Source of the DNA: Thiobacter sp. AK1
GTDB taxonomy: Bacteria > Pseudomonadota > Gammaproteobacteria > Burkholderiales > Thiobacteraceae
NCBI RefSeq assembly: GCF_039822265.1
Contig: NZ_JBAJEX010000003.1
Location: 62,001-126,000 of the forward strand
DNA: 64,000 nt
Direction: 5' to 3'
The translations under genes were made by a program, and so were the position numbers. Of this stretch, positions 3,104 to 24,851 are shown piece after piece. The first letter of the stretch is position 1, and each line of letters begins with the position of its first letter. The notes below the pieces were generated by a model that did not search any database, was not told where the DNA came from, and was given only the letters and a program-made list of their open reading frames with translations.

Positions 3104-3583
3104 TCAGGATTGGGTAGCCCGCGTGGCCGCCTCGTCGCGCTCGCGCATCAGCCAATAAACGATGCCCAGGGCCAGGGTGGCGCCCGCCAGGGCGGCGATC
3201 TTGGCGGGGCCCGCGTCAGGATCCAGGATGACGAACTTGCGCGCCAGCGCGATCAAAGCAATCAGCACCACGGTCTTCACCTGGATGATGCTGTCCCGGC
3301 GCAGCGCCACCTTGATGATGGAGTGCTTGAACTCCATGGCGATGAGCAGGGTCATGATGGCACCGAACACGGTCTGGAACACGGTGTGATCGAGGGGGTT
3401 GAAGGCATCCACCCACAGCAGGGTAAACGCCAGGCGAATGAGCTGGATCAGGGAAATCACCACGATCACCGCGATGACCCCAGAGAGGATGAGCGCGATG
3501 ACTTCCTCGAAACGTTCGTAGAAACTCATCACTGCCCAGGCATCGCGCAGGTCTTTCCAGGCAGCAGAGGGGCGCGGCTTCAT
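3104..3583 (-). CDS. PsiE-family membrane protein
   Basis: This 159-residue protein has about four hydrophobic segments: VIALILSGVIAVIVVISLIQ, the VFQTVFGAIMTLLIAME region, VKTVVLIALIALARKF and a C-terminal helix. The sequence around FKHSIIKVALRRDSIIQVKT resembles the PsiE (phosphate-starvation-inducible E) family. Function in the family is poorly known. The ATG overlaps the TGA of the upstream antiporter gene (ATGA), and AAGGAGA lies five bases before it, so the two are coupled. A PsiE-like gene after kefB is also typical of the locus of heat resistance, which supports the call. Its contribution here may be to envelope or ion stress; that is inference. Confidence 0.8.
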   Translation of the reverse strand: MKPRPSAAWKDLRDAWAVMSFYERFEEVIALILSGVIAVIVVISLIQLIRLAFTLLWVDAFNPLDHTVFQTVFGAIMTLLIAMEFKHSIIKVALRRDSIIQVKTVVLIALIALARKFVILDPDAGPAKIAALAGATLALGIVYWLMRERDEAATRATQS

Positions 3584-5289
3584 GGAGTCTCCTTGGCGGG
3601 ATGAAGTGGAGATTGTAGCGTCTCGCGCAGGGCGGCGATGAGGCCATCAGTGCGCTCGGCATCGACACCGCTTTCCAAAAGCGCGCGCTCAGCCAGAGCG
3701 AGTCCAGCCGCCAGGCGTTCCACATAGACTTTCACCCCAGGTTCGCCCAGCAGGCGGCGCGCCTCGCGGTCGGTGAGGCTGGTGGCCAGCACCGGCACGT
3801 CGGGATGGGTGTGACGCAGGTAATGAACAATGCGCAGCGCCTGTTCGGAACGGTGGAAGGTGATCACCACCAGCCGCGCCCGCTCCACACCGGCGGCGCG
3901 CAGGGTATTGATGCGGCTGGCATCACCGTAATACACCGGCAGTCCTTCCGCGCGTGCAATCTGGTACGCCTCGTAGTCGGACTCCACGACCAGGTGGGGA
4001 ATCTCCGCCACCGCCAGCGCCTGGCTAACGATGCGCCCCAACTGGCCCGCGCCGCAGACGATGACGTGCTGTTTAAGCTGCGCGGCGCGCAAGCCCACGT
4101 CCTCTTCCTGAGGTGGCGCGGGGTGAACCGCGGTCCGGGTGAGCAGGCGGGCAATGCGTTCGTGGTGGCGGATCATTAATGGCGCCGCCCCCATGGACAG
4201 CGCCAAGGCCACCAAGGCCGCCTGGCCTTGGGGCGCCGGAATCACCCCCGACGTCATGGCGCCACTCAAAAGCAGCAAACCGAATTCACCGCCATGCCCC
4301 AGGACCACCGCGCTGCGCCAAGCATCGGCCCGCGACAGCCCCGCCAGGCGCAAAGCCGGCCAATTGAGCAGGATTTTCAAGGGCACCAGCGCCGCGAACC
4401 AGGCCAGCACCGCCAGCGGCGCGGCGAGGAACTGGCCGGCATCCACTTGCAGGCCGACGGTGATGAAGAACAGACTCAACAGCACGTCGCGGAAGGGGCG
4501 GATGTCGTCTTCCATGCGATGGCGAAAATCGCTCTCGCCCAACACTATCCCCGCGAGGAAGGCACCCAGCGCGGGCGACACCCCCAGCACATGGGCGCCA
4601 TAGGCCGCCCCCAGCACCAAAGTGAGCGCCACCAGCAAGAACACCTCCTCCACGCCGCGCCGCGCCACCCAGGCCATGAAGCGATGCAGGGGGCGGCGTG
4701 AGGCGGCCACCGCCACCACGAACAGGACCACTACGCCCGCCACCTCCACCAACACTGCGCCGGTCTGGGGCGCGCCACCGCGCGCCCAGATGGCGAGCAG
4801 GGCGAGCACGGGGATGGTGGCGATGTCCTGGAACACCAGCACGGCCATGGCCATGCGGCCGTGGCGCACGGTGAGCTCGCCCTGTTCCGCAAGCTGTTTG
4901 CCGACGATGGCACTGGAGGACATGGCCGCCGCCGCGCCCAGCAGGAAAGCCGCCCGCGCGTCCACCCCCAGCGCGCGGCTGGCGAGTCCCACCGCCAGCC
5001 CCACGAACAGCATTTGCATAAGCCCCGCCGAGAGCACGCGGCGCCAAGTGGCCCACAGGCTCGCCACGGAGAATTCCAGTCCCACCATGAACAAAAGCAA
5101 CACCACACCCACCTCGGCGAGGAAGGTGAGGCTTGCACCGGGCTGCAACAGCCCCGACACCGAGGGTCCGAGGGCGACGCCAGCAGCGAGATAGCCGAGC
5201 AGCGTGGGCAGGCGCAAGCGACTCGCCACCGCCGCGGCGATCGCCCCCGCCACCAGCAGGGCGAGGGAGAAGGAGAAGAGATCCTGCAC
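3580..5289 (-). CDS. KefB/CPA2-type cation:proton antiporter with RCK domain
   Basis: This 569-residue protein has a Na/H-exchanger membrane domain of the CPA2 type (about residues 1-385, some twelve hydrophobic stretches, including the GYLAAGVALGP and LLLFMVGLEFS motifs). A cytosolic TrkA-N nucleotide-binding domain follows (about 400-520), with the Rossmann motif VIVCGAGQLGRIV and YYGDASR. KefB-like proteins release potassium, often gated by glutathione adducts, and protect against electrophiles. It lies 12 bases after trxC and overlaps the psiE-like gene by four bases. A kefB homologue between thioredoxin and PsiE genes is the order seen in the locus of heat resistance. The transported ion cannot be fixed from sequence. 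Confidence 0.9.
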   Translation of the reverse strand: MQDLFSFSLALLVAGAIAAAVASRLRLPTLLGYLAAGVALGPSVSGLLQPGASLTFLAEVGVVLLLFMVGLEFSVASLWATWRRVLSAGLMQMLFVGLAVGLASRALGVDARAAFLLGAAAAMSSSAIVGKQLAEQGELTVRHGRMAMAVLVFQDIATIPVLALLAIWARGGAPQTGAVLVEVAGVVVLFVVAVAASRRPLHRFMAWVARRGVEEVFLLVALTLVLGAAYGAHVLGVSPALGAFLAGIVLGESDFRHRMEDDIRPFRDVLLSLFFITVGLQVDAGQFLAAPLAVLAWFAALVPLKILLNWPALRLAGLSRADAWRSAVVLGHGGEFGLLLLSGAMTSGVIPAPQGQAALVALALSMGAAPLMIRHHERIARLLTRTAVHPAPPQEEDVGLRAAQLKQHVIVCGAGQLGRIVSQALAVAEIPHLVVESDYEAYQIARAEGLPVYYGDASRINTLRAAGVERARLVVITFHRSEQALRIVHYLRHTHPDVPVLATSLTDREARRLLGEPGVKVYVERLAAGLALAERALLESGVDAERTDGLIAALRETLQSPLHPAKETP

Positions 5290-19177: not shown

Positions 19178-20212
19178 TCAGGTCGTGGGCTGCGGCTGGC
19201 TGTCCTTGGCAGGAGTGAAGGCATCGGAATAGAACGCCTCCTCCGGCAAGCCCGCCGCCACCAGCACGCGATGGGCTTCGCTCACCATCTCCGGTGAACC
19301 ACAGGCATAAACTTCGTAACTCTTGATGTCGGGATGATCGGCCAGGGCGCAGTCTTGGACGTGGCCCGTGCGTCCGTTCCATTGGTCTTCCGCCGTGGGC
19401 CGCGACAGCACCGGCACGAAGGTGAAGTTGGCCTGCGTCTGCGCCCATTGCTGGGGCAGGTCCAGCATGTAGAGATCGTCCCGGTGGCGACCACCCCAGT
19501 AAAGGGTGATGGGGCGCCTGATACCCACGTGGAAGGCATGTTCCAGCATGCTCTTGATGGGCGCGAAACCGGTGCCGGTGGCCAGCATGATGATGGGTTT
19601 ATCGCTGTCTTCCCGCAGGAAGAACGTTCCCAACGGCCCTTCGAAGCGCAGGATGGTCTTTTCCTGCATGGTGGTGAAGACGTATTCGGTGAAGGCACCG
19701 CCCGGCACGTGGCGCACATGGAGTTGCAACAGGGCATCGTCATGGGGCGCATTGGCCAGCGAGAAACTGCGCCGCTTGCCATCCTTGAGCAGGATATCGA
19801 TGTATTGGCCCGCCAGGAACTGCAGGCGCTCGCTGGCAGGGAGCTTGAGATAGAGCACCGCCACATCGTCGGAGACCCGCTCGATCTTCTGCACCCGGCA
19901 GGGAATGGTCTTGATCTGGATATCGCGCGCAGCGCTCACCTCGCGTGATTCGATCACCAGATCGGACAGCGGGCGCGCGCGGCAGAACAAGGCGAAACCG
20001 GCGGCTTTTTCCTCGTCGGTGAGCGCCGTGCTCTGGTAATCCCCATAATCCACTTGGCCCGAGAGAATCTTGCCCTTGCAGGAACCACAGGCCCCATTGC
20101 GACAGCCGTAGGGCAGGGTGAAGCCATGGCGTAGGGCGGATTCTAGGACGGTTTCCTGGTCTTCCGCCTCATAGCGATGGCCACTGGGCTGGATGGTGAT
20201 GTAAAACGGCAT
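19178..20212 (-). CDS. 2Fe-2S flavodoxin/ferredoxin-NAD(P) reductase-type oxidoreductase
   Basis: From ATG 20212 (GAGGA upstream) this is a 344-residue protein. Its N-terminal plant-type ferredoxin domain has cysteines at 37, 42, 45 and 77 in the C-x4-C-x2-C pattern. FAD- and NAD(P)-binding reductase domains follow, with RRSFSLAN, a GPLGTFFL strand, LATGTGFAPIKSM and a C-terminal YACGSPEMV. This is the layout of CDP-6-deoxy-delta-3,4-glucoseen reductase (AscD-like) and of phenol or methane monooxygenase reductases. No partner oxygenase or sugar genes are nearby, so the physiological acceptor is unknown. In betaproteobacteria such genes are common as stand-alone reductases. Confidence 0.88.
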   Translation of the reverse strand: MPFYITIQPSGHRYEAEDQETVLESALRHGFTLPYGCRNGACGSCKGKILSGQVDYGDYQSTALTDEEKAAGFALFCRARPLSDLVIESREVSAARDIQIKTIPCRVQKIERVSDDVAVLYLKLPASERLQFLAGQYIDILLKDGKRRSFSLANAPHDDALLQLHVRHVPGGAFTEYVFTTMQEKTILRFEGPLGTFFLREDSDKPIIMLATGTGFAPIKSMLEHAFHVGIRRPITLYWGGRHRDDLYMLDLPQQWAQTQANFTFVPVLSRPTAEDQWNGRTGHVQDCALADHPDIKSYEVYACGSPEMVSEAHRVLVAAGLPEEAFYSDAFTPAKDSQPQPTT

Positions 20213-20243
20213 GACGAATCCTCGAGAGCGGGAACAATCCCGG

Positions 20244-20249
20244 TATAAT
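20244..20249 (+). promoter_or_regulatory. Possible -10 element (TATAAT) for SDR gene
   Basis: A consensus TATAAT lies 28 bases before the ATG at 20277, in the 64-base divergent gap. No clear -35 hexamer is seen 17 bases upstream, so this rests on the -10 alone. Confidence 0.35.
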
Positions 20250-20276
20250 CCAGGCCCCTTCCTGGATGGTTGCAAC

Positions 20277-21143
20277 ATGAGACGGTTGTTGATCGTGGGG
20301 TGCGGCGACGTGGGCCTGCGCGCGGTGAAGCGGCTTTTGCCGGCGTTCCATGTCTATGCGCTCACGCGCGACCGGACGCGCGTGAGCGTTTTGCGGGCCA
20401 TGGGCATCACGCCCATCGTCGGTGACCTGGACCGTCCCGAAACACTCACCAAACTCGCGGGCCTGGCCCACTGCGTGATGCACTTCGCGCCGCCGCAGAA
20501 CGAAGGCGAGGTGGACCGACGCACACATCACCTGCTCGCCGCGCTGGACAGGGGCGTGATGTTACCACAGCGGCTGGTGTATATCAGCACGACCGGTGTG
20601 TATGGTCATTGCGAAGGCCAATGGGTGACCGAGACGCACCCCGTGCGGCCCACCACCGCCCGCGCCAAGCGTCGGCTGTCGGCAGAAACCCAGTTGCGGG
20701 AATGGGGAAAGCGCCAGGGCGTGACGGTGTCCATCCTGCGGGTGCCCGGGATCTATGCCCAGGATCGCCTACCTTTGAAGCGGCTGGAAGCGGGCCTGCC
20801 CACCCTGGTGCCGGAGGAGGATAGCTACACCAATCACATCCATGCTGACGATCTCGCACGCATTGCCGCCGCCGCCATCTTTCGCGGCCGGCCGGGACGC
20901 GTCTACAACGCGGTGGACGATTCCCACATCAAGATGGGGGACTGGTTCGACCTCCTCGCCCGCCGTCACAATTTGCCGCCGCCGCGCCGCATCACCCGTG
21001 CCGAGGCGCAGACGGTGCTGCCCGCCAACTTGCTGTCGTTTCTCAACGAGTCCCGTCGCGTCGCCAACCAGCGCCTCAAGCGCGAGCTCAAGGTGAGGCT
21101 CGTCTATCCGGACGTGGAAACAGGCACCCGCCCTGTGGCGTGA
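20277..21143 (+). CDS. NAD-dependent epimerase/dehydratase-like SDR (YeeZ type)
   Basis: This 288-residue protein starts with a Rossmann motif (LLIVGCGDVGLRA) and has the extended-SDR features STTGVYG (Ser/Thr and Tyr region), RVPGIYAQDRLPL and HIHADDLARI. It differs from classic epimerases by the GCGDVG glycine pattern, as in YeeZ-like proteins of unknown substrate. The ATG at 20277 is chosen because the Rossmann strand begins immediately; upstream in-frame codons would overlap the divergent reductase gene. The substrate cannot be deduced from sequence. Confidence 0.82.
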   Translation: MRRLLIVGCGDVGLRAVKRLLPAFHVYALTRDRTRVSVLRAMGITPIVGDLDRPETLTKLAGLAHCVMHFAPPQNEGEVDRRTHHLLAALDRGVMLPQRLVYISTTGVYGHCEGQWVTETHPVRPTTARAKRRLSAETQLREWGKRQGVTVSILRVPGIYAQDRLPLKRLEAGLPTLVPEEDSYTNHIHADDLARIAAAAIFRGRPGRVYNAVDDSHIKMGDWFDLLARRHNLPPPRRITRAEAQTVLPANLLSFLNESRRVANQRLKRELKVRLVYPDVETGTRPVA

Positions 21144-21687: not shown

Positions 21688-22017
21688 ATGGAGGCGGTGC
21701 TGGTGATTTCGAATCTGCCCGATCAGGACAGCGCGCAGGCGCTGGCACAAGAAGCGGTCACGGCGCGGCTTGCGGCCTGCGTGAACGTTCTGGCGCCCTG
21801 CAGCTCAGTCTATCGGTGGCAGGGTAAGCTGGAAAGGGCGATCGAAGTGCCAGTCTTGTTCAAAACGTCCAAGCAGCGCTACCCCGAGCTGGAAGCCTTC
21901 ATCCGCGCCCGCCACCCTTACGAACTTCCGGAAATCGTAGCAGTCCCAATCGAGACTGGCCTGCCCGCCTATCTGCATTGGCTGGCGCTCGAGATCACCC
22001 CTAAACCCCTACAATAA
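21688..22017 (+). CDS. cutA: CutA1 divalent-cation tolerance protein
   Basis: This 109-residue protein is CutA: ISNLPDQDSAQALAQ at the start, RLAACVNVLAPCSSVYRWQGKLE in the middle and a C-terminal HPYELPEIVAVP. CutA is a small trimeric protein linked to copper tolerance. GGAGG lies six bases before the ATG. It is followed after 19 bases by dsbD, the same cutA-dsbD order as in E. coli, which also supports the call. Confidence 0.95.
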   Translation: MEAVLVISNLPDQDSAQALAQEAVTARLAACVNVLAPCSSVYRWQGKLERAIEVPVLFKTSKQRYPELEAFIRARHPYELPEIVAVPIETGLPAYLHWLALEITPKPLQ

Positions 22018-22036: not shown

Positions 22037-24319
22037 ATGAGATTCTTTGCCGCCCTTGCCCTGTTGGTGTCCTTGGTCGCTAATGCCGCAGAAGATGGCG
22101 AGCTATTGGAACCAGAAAAGGCTTTCGCCTTTTCCGCACGTGCGTTGGATGCCGCCACGCTGGAAATCCGCTACCGCATCGCCGAGGGTTATTACCTCTA
22201 CCGCGACAAGTTCCGCTTCGAGGTGGAGCCCAAATCCATCGCCCTGGGCACGCCCCAGTTGCCGCCAGGCAAGGTGAAGCAGGACGAGTTTTTCGGTCGC
22301 GTCGAGACCTATCGCGGCACGCTTACCTTCAAGCTGCCGCTGGTGCGGCCGGCGCCGGGCCAGACCCTGACGCTCAAGAGTATCTCCCAGGGGTGCGCCG
22401 ACGTGGGCGTGTGCTATCCGCCCCTCGCCCAGACGATCAAGCTCACCCTGCCTGATACAACGCCCAGGGCGGTGGGCGGCCTTGCCGCGCTGAAGGATCT
22501 GGGAACCGAGCTGGGTGGCGAGTCCGACCTGCTGCCGCCGGATCAGGCCTTCAAGGTATCGGCGGTAGTGCGGGATGCCCGCGCCGCGGAGGTGATCCTG
22601 GAGCCCGCGCCCGGCTATTACCTCTACCGCGACAAGCTCAAGTTCAAGGTGGTGGAAGGGCCGGCCAGCGTGACCGAGGTCATGCTACCCAAGGGCGAGC
22701 AGAAAGACGACCCCAACTTCGGCAAGACTGAGGTATATCACCAGCGGGTGGTGGCAGAGCTGCGTCTGGCCCGAAGCCGGGAGGGCGCAGCCCGCATCGT
22801 GCTGGAAGTCGGCTGGCAGGGCTGCGCCGACAAGGGCGTGTGCTACCTGCCCGCCAGCCGTCGTTTTCCCCTCAACCTTCCGGCCGTCGCCGCCGCTCAG
22901 CCTGGGGCCGCTTCCCCGGCCCCCGCGCCCGAGGCCACACCGCCCGCGTCCCCGGCGGAGGCGACGCAGCCCATCCGCGCGGCTCAAACCTCCCCCCAAC
23001 CGTCCCCCAAGGGCGCGACTCAGCCCGAGGACGAATCTTCGACCATCGCCCGCTTATTCCAGGGGGGCAGCTTTTGGCTGATCATCGCCAGCTTCTTCGG
23101 CTTCGGACTGCTGCTGGCGCTTACGCCCTGCGTTTTCCCGATGATCCCCATCCTGTCCGGCATCATTGTCGGCCAGGGCAAGCAGCTCACCAAGATGCAG
23201 GGTTTCGTGCTGTCTCTGGCCTACGTCCTGGGCATGGCGGTGACCTATGCCATCGCCGGTGTGGTGGCCGGACTATCGGGCGCGTTGATCTCCTCGGCGC
23301 TGCAAAATCCCTGGGTGTTGGGCGCCTTCGCGCTGATCTTTGTGGCCCTGGCCTTGTCCATGTTCGGCTTCTACGAGCTACAGATGCCCAACTTCATCCA
23401 GAGCCGTTTCACCGAGAAGGCCAACCAGATCAAAGGGGGCAACCTCACCGGCGTATTCGTCATGGGCGTGCTGTCGGCGGTGATCGTGGGGCCCTGTGTG
23501 GCCGCCCCGCTGGCCGGCGCGCTCCTCTATATCGGTCAGACCCGCGACGTCTGGCTAGGCGGCTTCGCCCTGTTCGCCATGGCCCTGGGGATGGGCGTGC
23601 CGCTGCTGCTGGTGGGCGTGGCCGGCGGCGCGCTACTACCCCGGGCCGGCGCCTGGATGAACGCGGTCAAGGCCTTCTTCGGTGTGATGCTGCTAGGCGT
23701 CGCGATCTGGCTTGTCTCGCCGGTGATTCCCGCCTGGCTAAACATGCTGCTTTGGGCGGCGTTGTTGATCGTCTCCGCCATCTATCTAAATGCCCTCGAC
23801 CCGCTGCCAGCGGGGGCCCCGGGTTTCCGCAAATTCTGGAAGGGCGTGGGGGTGATTGCGCTGCTGGTGGGCACCTCGCTGTTGATCGGCGCCCTGTCCG
23901 GCAGCCGCGATATCCTGCAGCCCCTGGCGGGCCTGCGCGCGGCGCCTGCGGCGGCCAGCGAAGCCACCGGCCTCAAGTTCGAGAAGGTGGCCGCGAAAGA
24001 TTTCGACACGCGGCTCGCCGCCGCGCGCGGCACACCGGTGATGGTGGACTTCTACGCGGACTGGTGCGTTTCCTGCAAGGAAATGGAACGTTTCACCTTC
24101 AGCGATCCGCGGGTGGTGGCGCGCCTTGCGGGCGTGACCCTGCTTAAGATCGACGTGACCCAAAACGACGAAGCAGACAAGGAACTGCTCAAACGCTTCA
24201 ACCTGTTCGGCCCACCCGGCATCATCTTCCTCGATGGCGAAGGCAAGGAACGCTACCGGGTGGTGGGCTATCAGCCGCCCGAGAAATTCCTGAAAAGCAT
24301 CGACGCCGCGCTGAAGTGA
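22037..24319 (+). CDS. dsbD: Thiol:disulfide interchange protein DsbD with duplicated alpha domain
   Basis: This 760-residue protein carries electrons from cytosolic thioredoxin to periplasmic thiols. Unlike the usual single one, it has two tandem alpha domains after the signal peptide: residues ~19-140 with YYLYRDK (52-58) and the redox pair in QGCADVGVC (Cys120, Cys126), and ~160-282 with YYLYRDK (194-200) and QGCADKGVC (Cys263, Cys269). A Pro/Ala-rich linker leads to the eight-helix beta domain, with LALTPCVFPMIP and VGPCVAAPL. The C-terminal gamma domain has ADWCVSC. It follows cutA by 19 bases and precedes a TlpA-like gene by four. Confidence 0.96.
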   Translation: MRFFAALALLVSLVANAAEDGELLEPEKAFAFSARALDAATLEIRYRIAEGYYLYRDKFRFEVEPKSIALGTPQLPPGKVKQDEFFGRVETYRGTLTFKLPLVRPAPGQTLTLKSISQGCADVGVCYPPLAQTIKLTLPDTTPRAVGGLAALKDLGTELGGESDLLPPDQAFKVSAVVRDARAAEVILEPAPGYYLYRDKLKFKVVEGPASVTEVMLPKGEQKDDPNFGKTEVYHQRVVAELRLARSREGAARIVLEVGWQGCADKGVCYLPASRRFPLNLPAVAAAQPGAASPAPAPEATPPASPAEATQPIRAAQTSPQPSPKGATQPEDESSTIARLFQGGSFWLIIASFFGFGLLLALTPCVFPMIPILSGIIVGQGKQLTKMQGFVLSLAYVLGMAVTYAIAGVVAGLSGALISSALQNPWVLGAFALIFVALALSMFGFYELQMPNFIQSRFTEKANQIKGGNLTGVFVMGVLSAVIVGPCVAAPLAGALLYIGQTRDVWLGGFALFAMALGMGVPLLLVGVAGGALLPRAGAWMNAVKAFFGVMLLGVAIWLVSPVIPAWLNMLLWAALLIVSAIYLNALDPLPAGAPGFRKFWKGVGVIALLVGTSLLIGALSGSRDILQPLAGLRAAPAAASEATGLKFEKVAAKDFDTRLAAARGTPVMVDFYADWCVSCKEMERFTFSDPRVVARLAGVTLLKIDVTQNDEADKELLKRFNLFGPPGIIFLDGEGKERYRVVGYQPPEKFLKSIDAALK

Positions 24320-24323
24320 CACC

Positions 24324-24851
24324 ATGGGTGGGCGGGCACAATGGCTGCTGATCGGGGTGGTCGCCCTCGCCGCCCTCGGCCTGGGGCTGTGGGTGGGCGA
24401 GCGCCACAGCCGTCCCGAGCCGCCCAATGGCATGACGCCGGAGCGCCTCTACGCCCTGACCTTTGCCGATCTGGAAGGCCGACCCCAGGCGCTTGGCCGC
24501 TGGCACGGCCAGGTGGTGGTGCTCAACTTCTGGGCCACCTGGTGCCCCCCCTGCCGCGCCGAAATGCCGGAATTCGTCCGGGTACAGCAACGCTATGGCG
24601 CGCGCGGCTTCAGCTTCGTGGGCATCGCCCTGGACGAGCCGGCGGCCGTGCAAGCCTTCGCACGGGAGCTTGGCATCAACTATCCCCTGCTGATCGGCGG
24701 CGCCCAAGGGGCGACACTCGCCCGCAGCCTGGGCAGCCGGGGGGCGCTGCCCTTCAGCGTCATCCTGGACCGGCAAGGACGCATCGTCGCCACCCGTCTG
24801 GGTACGCTTAGCGAATCCGAGCTCCATCAGCTCTTGCCCCCTATACTGTAA
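24324..24851 (+). CDS. TlpA-like membrane-anchored thioredoxin
   Basis: This 175-residue protein has an uncleaved or signal N-terminal helix (about 7-24) and a TlpA/ResA-type thioredoxin domain with WCPPC (Cys74, Cys77) and the cis-proline region GALPFSVILD. It starts four bases after dsbD, so the DsbD above is its likely electron donor. TlpA-like proteins reduce periplasmic cysteines, often in cytochrome c or oxidase maturation. Which client it serves here is unknown. Confidence 0.85.
   Translation: MGGRAQWLLIGVVALAALGLGLWVGERHSRPEPPNGMTPERLYALTFADLEGRPQALGRWHGQVVVLNFWATWCPPCRAEMPEFVRVQQRYGARGFSFVGIALDEPAAVQAFARELGINYPLLIGGAQGATLARSLGSRGALPFSVILDRQGRIVATRLGTLSESELHQLLPPIL

Follow-up and report, generated by a model that had tools for sequence, protein, structure and literature searches.

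The alpha domain of DsbD has been described as a single hub that recognises every client, and the locus studied here raises the question of what a DsbD does with two of them. In E. coli, according to the parts of the sources consulted, the gamma domain donates electrons to alpha, which gives them to CcmG, DsbC and DsbG (PMC7347389; PMC3961690). A preliminary description of a 64-kb stretch of DNA from Thiobacter sp. AK1 (hereafter the window) had claimed that its dsbD gene encodes two tandem alpha domains, each with YYLYRDK and the redox motif QGCAD-x-GVC. This was borne out by Pfam, by separate scoring of the two copies and by their cysteine pairs. The features of the locus are given here by window position; D1 and D2 are the two alpha types discussed below.

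21688..22017, forward strand: cutA, the upstream neighbour (Pfam CutA1)
22037..24319, forward strand: dsbD with two alpha domains, 760 aa (open reading frame; Pfam; NCBIfam NF001419)
22037..22090, forward strand: probable signal peptide, residues 1–18 (by eye from MRFFAALALLVSLVANAA)
22094..22456, forward strand: alpha1 domain (type D1), residues 20–140 (DsbD_N stretch)
22283..22297, forward strand: alpha1 cap loop DEFFG, residues 83–87, equivalent to E. coli D68–G72 (alignment)
22388..22414, forward strand: alpha1 redox motif QGCADVGVC, with Cys120 and Cys126
22514..22885, forward strand: alpha2 domain (type D2), residues 160–283 (DsbD_N stretch)
22709..22723, forward strand: alpha2 cap loop DPNFG, residues 225–229, with Asn at the position of E. 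coli F70 (alignment)
22817..22843, forward strand: alpha2 redox motif QGCADKGVC, with Cys263 and Cys269
22886..23056, forward strand: proline/alanine-rich linker from alpha2 to the membrane domain, residues 284–340 (low pLDDT)
23057..23746, forward strand: beta (membrane) domain, residues 341–570, with Cys365 and Cys487 (Pfam DsbD_TM)
23963..24316, forward strand: gamma domain, thioredoxin-like, residues 643–760, with CVSC at 677–680
24324..24851, forward strand: TlpA/ResA-like thioredoxin, downstream neighbour and possible client (Pfam Redoxin, AhpC-TSA)

The product scores 692.6 bits against the curated NCBIfam model for DsbD (NF001419, protein-disulfide reductase; cut-off 330) and has the other hallmarks of the family, namely the C-x5-C alpha (here twice), a membrane domain with two cysteines and a gamma domain with CXXC. 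Pfam finds DsbD_N in two stretches (whole-protein E 2.9e-65), DsbD_TM at residues 346–564 (E 2.4e-100, whole profile covered) and thioredoxin-like matches that fall within residues 650–756. Both alpha domains are complete, matching DsbD_N across nearly the whole profile, and are the only DsbD_N matches in a search of the source genome. There alpha1 and alpha2 scored separately at 118.4 and 108.5 bits (E 3.4e-34 and 4.0e-31) against a cut-off of 25, so neither is a chance match. The limits first proposed for them, about residues 19–140 and 160–282, were roughly right, the profile-based limits being about 20–140 and 160–283. The two domains are 39% identical and share the YYLYRDK and C-x5-C motifs. 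The protein has only eight cysteines, one pair per domain (120/126, 263/269, 365/487 and 677/680), and in 50 aligned doubled proteins Cys365 and Cys487 of beta and both gamma cysteines are invariant.

Structure prediction agrees with two alpha modules. An AlphaFold2 (AF2) model, with 49 doubled relatives in the alignment, has a mean pLDDT of 82.7 and predicts both alpha domains as well folded (pLDDT per ten-residue block mostly 83–96 for alpha1 and 92–97 for alpha2); its best PDB matches are nDsbD and cDsbD. With a pTM of 0.51 the model does not predict the mutual arrangement of the domains, and the linkers between them are of low confidence, residues 288–331 lying below pLDDT 50 nearly throughout. 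An Rfam search of the window yielded no match at gathering scores.

The DsbD proteins of E. coli (b4136) and Neisseria meningitidis resemble the window protein in their alpha–beta–gamma order, C-x5-C alpha and CXXC gamma domain, and in E. coli, as in Thiobacter sp. AK1, cutA lies directly upstream of dsbD; E. coli DsbD, however, has one alpha domain and that of Thiobacter sp. AK1 two. The nine distinct DsbD alpha chains found in the PDB all match alpha1 (at best 77 bits) better than alpha2 (at best 61 bits). Another DsbD-like membrane reductase, ScsB of Proteus and Caulobacter, has two tandem N-terminal immunoglobulin-like domains; only one of the two is known to carry catalytic cysteines, the first domain being without them, and an scsC-like gene lies alongside. 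Compared with these features of ScsB, Thiobacter sp. AK1 DsbD differs in carrying C-x5-C in both N-terminal domains, and its two adjoining genes are cutA and the TlpA-like gene rather than an scsC-like gene.

Tandem alpha domains turned out to be ordinary and widespread in the relatives of Thiobacter sp. AK1. DsbD_N occurs in tandem within one gene in 31 of 89 class genomes, sampled one per family (81 with any DsbD_N), in 13 of 80 order genomes (79 with any) and in 4 of 120 phylum genomes (60 with any), the last four all belonging to the same class by a count by eye. Each count includes the genome of Thiobacter sp. AK1 itself, and frequencies of doubling are drawn from these three genome samples only. 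The idea that a doubled alpha is rare thus fails on the class and order figures and, because the feature is shared by so many class genomes, we regard two alpha domains in place of the family's single one as a variant rather than a bar to membership. A set of 80 named-record loci, chosen by similarity to the window protein and hence not a frequency sample, has 43 doubled among the loci listed, including records of Thiobacillus, Hydrogenophilus, Sulfuricella, Thiogranum and Sedimenticola; Nitrosomonas and Nitrosospira are single. The long N-terminal extensions at L119, L133, L272 and L276 were considered as hiding places for an alpha domain, and none was found there by Pfam, nor by our own alpha profiles at the same four loci and L138. 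Most likely these four extensions represent DNA upstream of the gene that is not translated but was read in the wrong frame.

The earlier view of DsbD as a one-alpha protein agrees with the parts of the literature consulted, but not with the genomes, where doubling is common. Among titles and the starts of abstracts, with most subscription papers beyond reach, we found no description of a doubled catalytic alpha domain. XC_0531, the DsbD of Xanthomonas campestris, is encoded by a gene of 2307 bp with neighbours cutA, aroQ and accB, and has CXXC at 683–686 (PMC5488342, in the section covered). Its gene size and place are as expected for a doubled DsbD, and from these two features we infer that it probably is one; the word ‘domain’ is absent from the main text of that paper and doubling is not mentioned in the section covered.

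Judged by their sequences, alpha1 and alpha2 are two old and distinct types and not a fresh repeat. In a tree of 173 alpha domains (55 D1, 55 D2 and 63 single) D1 and D2 separate, with 48 D2, 24 single and one D1 domain on one side of the split and 54 D1, 39 single and seven D2 domains on the other; the one D1 and seven D2 domains are exceptions on the unexpected side, and the SH-aLRT support of 94 is below the tool's mark for good support. That mark is carried by a D1-rich set (support 97) of 49 D1 domains and 14 singles, which come from beta- and gamma-proteobacterial records alike. As a rule, then, the copies of one protein are not nearest relatives, which argues against repeated recent duplication; compared with each other inside one protein, they are 30–55% identical (median 40%, n = 73). 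A classifier with D1 and D2 profiles built from doubled proteins and scored on held-out domains placed 55 of 55 D1 and 51 of 55 D2 domains correctly in 10-fold cross-validation (106 of 110), and gave D1-minus-D2 scores of +35.7 for alpha1 and −21.3 for alpha2 of Thiobacter sp. AK1. First copies were D1 in 31 of 31 cases in the class sample and 13 of 13 in the order sample, and second copies D2 in 28 of 31 and 13 of 13, respectively, some of these copies having also been in the training set. The proteins behind the classifier and the residue counts (73 doubled, 92 single) form a non-random sample and are related to one another, which makes Fisher tests on them descriptive.

Both domains look functional: the alpha cysteines are kept in 73 of 73 D1 and 73 of 73 D2 domains, dN/dS is well below 1, and each type is also found alone. 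By the Nei–Gojobori method, with one same-genus relative, dN/dS is 0.14 for alpha1, 0.28 for alpha2, 0.46 for the linker, 0.08 for beta and 0.18 for gamma; across 90 doubled proteins, the D2 distance exceeds the D1 distance in 81% of pairs. Because alpha2 evolves faster, it may be the lesser partner. A mirror-tree comparison of which alpha pairs with gamma showed no difference between alpha1 and alpha2. Outright decay of alpha2, with alpha1 doing the work, would go along with the roughly twofold dN/dS and with the non-canonical cap loop of alpha2, but we consider it very improbable in view of the invariant alpha2 cysteines, a dN/dS that is well below 1 in this one genome pair, the high-confidence fold in the AF2 model and the many lineages that have the D2 type only.

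The two types differ around the active site. In the alpha domain of E. coli, a cap loop (D68-E69-F70-Y71-G72) shields the active site, with F70 packing on the cysteines; across 134 sequences, each from a different genus, 53% have Phe or Tyr at position 70 and 85% at position 71 (PMC7347389, in the parts consulted). We found position 70 to be aromatic in 63 of 73 D1 domains against 23 of 73 D2 domains (48/55 and 19/55 in a thinned set); among singles the figures are 10/14 for the D1 type, 3/54 for the D2 type and 19/24 for undecided ones. Position 71 is aromatic in 71/73 D1 and 67/73 D2 domains. D2 domains probably close the active site differently, the residue at position 71 being the likely shield. 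In the thinned set, the cap loop is followed by Arg in 46/55 D1 and by His in 34/55 D2 domains, QGC is preceded by Ser in 30/55 D1 and by Tyr in 36/55 D2 domains and followed by Asp in 50/55 D1 and by Glu in 38/55 D2 domains, and the C-x5-C loop has a small or hydrophobic residue in D1 and often Lys or Arg in D2 (25/55). In the first three of these respects, singles of each type show the same leanings. Alpha2 of the window protein is D2-like in its cap (DPNFG) and in having the His and the Lys; its QGCAD, however, retains the Asp and is preceded by Trp.

Single-alpha DsbDs of either type exist. The classifier called 17 of 45 order singles D1-like, 15 D2-like and 13 between; for 43 class singles the numbers are 1, 15 and 27, and the alpha domain of E. 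coli DsbD (+1.6) also lies between the types. These typed singles represent 45 of 66 order and 43 of 50 class genomes with only non-tandem DsbD_N, the remainder being proteins that were not retrieved or genomes without a canonical DsbD or a recovered membrane domain. In the order, 15 of 17 D1-type and 11 of 15 D2-type singles are the sole DsbD_N match of their genome. A tree of the order and near relatives sets 18 D1 domains with 17 D1-type singles against 18 D2 domains with 20 D2-type singles (branch support 100/96), and a topology that unites the 37 singles is rejected (p-AU 2e-6). The groups of singles in this tree were named by the classifier before tree building, with 13 between-type singles left out; four singles sit on long branches and the bootstrap was not fully settled (0.988 against 0.99). 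Since singles of both types fall on their own sides of this branch, the simplest history is one duplication followed by loss of either copy. D1 and D2 would then derive most simply from one duplication before the beta- and gamma-proteobacterial carrier lines parted, with many losses since, and we infer that domains were duplicated and lost, not swapped between lineages.

On the membrane-domain tree, doubled proteins occur in two large groups (37 rows, support 86, and 56 rows, support 91), in both of which they are mixed with single forms. These two groups and E. coli's group of eight meet at a fork without resolution, which is compatible with either one or two alpha domains in the ancestors of E. 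coli DsbD; a very long branch sets apart two more doubled proteins, both from the same family. This tree requires at least 15 switches between the doubled and the single state, and another membrane-domain tree at least 19; as the trees are unrooted, many losses are assumed, repeated gains are compatible with them, and they do not strictly separate gain, loss and exchange of domains. It is quite possible, though somewhat less likely than not, that DsbD in much of the class (the Gammaproteobacteria in a broad sense, judging by the named relatives) goes back to a two-outlet ancestor whose alpha types serve different clients, many singles being relics of reciprocal loss. Alpha domains taken as orthologous between species would then often be different paralogues, and what is known of E. 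coli alpha would not simply transfer to the D2 type.

A single DsbD of Thiobacillus thioparus (L063) was considered as a recent loss of alpha2 and rejected: the same genome holds a doubled DsbD, so L063 is a second DsbD copy and was not counted as evidence of loss, although it is still one row in the alpha tree, the classifier, the membrane-domain tree and the neighbourhood counts. T. thioparus DSM 505 (L063; L191/L195) thus has a doubled DsbD plus a second, single D1-type DsbD, the latter without cutA upstream.

How might two such domains work on one gamma? The reading that we favour, with a probability of roughly 0.6, is one electron input with two parallel periplasmic outlets, formed by old paralogous alpha types that arose in one duplication and were variously lost. 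By analogy with E. coli DsbD, cytoplasmic thioredoxin would reduce the membrane domain, beta, which would reduce gamma. Gamma would then reduce either alpha1 or alpha2, each of which would pass electrons to periplasmic thioredoxin-like clients, of the kind known from E. coli (CcmG, DsbC and DsbG), with perhaps the TlpA-like neighbour among them. Transfer could instead be serial, gamma reducing only the membrane-near alpha2, alpha2 reducing alpha1, and alpha1 alone meeting clients farther out. The order alpha1–alpha2–beta–gamma along the chain speaks for such a relay, the low-confidence linkers of the model are probably flexible, and the deficit of aromatics at position 70 in alpha2 looks as though alpha2 were less shielded. 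We nonetheless hold a relay to be improbable: lineages keep either type alone, among the typed order singles mostly as the sole DsbD_N, so each type must be able to accept and deliver electrons, which makes two parallel outlets more likely than a relay. To our knowledge, moreover, no exchange between two alpha domains has been described. Either type alone seems to suffice, as far as can be judged from the singles of today, in which gamma may have become adapted.

An excess of redoxins in doubled genomes gives modest support to the idea that the doubled protein has more clients. The genome of Thiobacter sp. AK1 has 13 redoxins above the Pfam cut-off and two DsbC-type proteins, with no match to ResB. 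Matches to TIGR00385 in the class sample average 9.6 per doubled genome and 4.8 per genome with non-tandem DsbD_N only (size-stratified permutation p 1e-4), counted at E up to 1e-3, so that TlpA/ResA types are included, and leaving protein location aside; genome size differs as well, at 3.23 Mb for doubled against 2.56 Mb for the others. The excess recurs in the order subset (12 doubled genomes, the source genome excluded, against 45; p 3e-4). An independent-pairs test on well-supported branches left two usable pairs, hence the use of phylogenetic regression (PGLS) and of 16 greedy matched pairs on all branches, with five long rows dropped and seven genomes without a recovered membrane domain absent. 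PGLS on the membrane-domain tree with genome size gave a factor of about 1.3 (126 genomes, 42 doubled; p 9e-5), and of the matched pairs 12 show more redoxins in the doubled genome and one shows fewer; per Mb, the doubled genome is higher in 7 of the 16 pairs (p 0.80). DsbC_N is found in 30 of 31 doubled and 37 of 50 non-tandem-only genomes, and within 2.3–4.2 Mb in 23 of 24 and 26 of 30.

The larger number of redoxins to serve would also suit two redundant copies, that is, equivalent outlets that raise throughput without dividing the clients, as would the conservation of the cysteines and most core residues in both alpha domains and the fact that either type can be missing. Equivalence sits badly, however, with the type-dependent leanings of residues around the active site (Arg/His, Ser/Tyr, Asp/Glu), which recur in the singles, and we think simple redundancy unlikely. 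Under the favoured reading of two parallel outlets, a division of clients between D1 and D2 is plausible; the two sets of clients first suggested have indirect support from these residue differences and from the redoxin counts, though none from the per-Mb comparison. The single-alpha DsbD of one lineage, moreover, need not be equivalent to that of another. Two alpha types on one gamma, each also found alone elsewhere, permit a direct comparison of the residues that decide on clients.

The TlpA-like gene, said at the outset to lie four bases downstream, does start at 24324, four bases past the dsbD stop; its product is below the cut-off of every NCBIfam model among the matches listed. As a reason for the doubling it was rejected: where the DNA reaches far enough, the gene directly downstream is TlpA-like at 33 of 50 doubled and at 25 of 39 D2-type single loci, a like frequency that leaves the doubling unexplained, and at 2 of 6 D1-type single loci; among singles of the order tree with enough DNA, it follows 6 of 11 D1-type and 10 of 18 D2-type genes. 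Upstream, cutA is directly adjacent in 50 of 50 doubled, 39 of 39 D2-type and 5 of 6 D1-type single loci with enough DNA, and it is upstream in 13 of 17 D1-type and 18 of 20 D2-type singles of the order tree; doubled and single genes thus occupy the same locus. Elsewhere in the window, a 366-aa frame on the reverse strand (19178–20278) resembles by eye a flavin reductase, with a motif of plant-type ferredoxins early in the sequence.

Alpha domains also occur on their own. Fourteen loci with short DsbD_N frames were read, and nine of them, with aroQ and accB downstream, have a stand-alone, apparently secreted alpha in the place of dsbD (L304, L305, L306, L308, L309, L310, L314, L315 and L317), with no match to the beta domain of the window protein. 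Seven of these loci have cutA upstream, and seven (all but L309 and L317) have a TlpA-like gene no more than about 270 bases downstream, a pattern that points to a partnership between alpha and the TlpA-like protein in general. All of the nine genomes except G061 and G085 contain another DsbD_N match, located in a frame of 706–756 aa, which is a possible donor for the stand-alone alpha. At L311 (G275, about 3455–4430), a 326-aa frame after cutA is apparently an alpha fused to a gamma-like thioredoxin with no membrane domain between them. L307, L312, L313 and L316 hold more stand-alone alpha frames (161–176 aa) without cutA or aroQ matches, and that at L316 has an N-terminus that is lipoprotein-like by eye.
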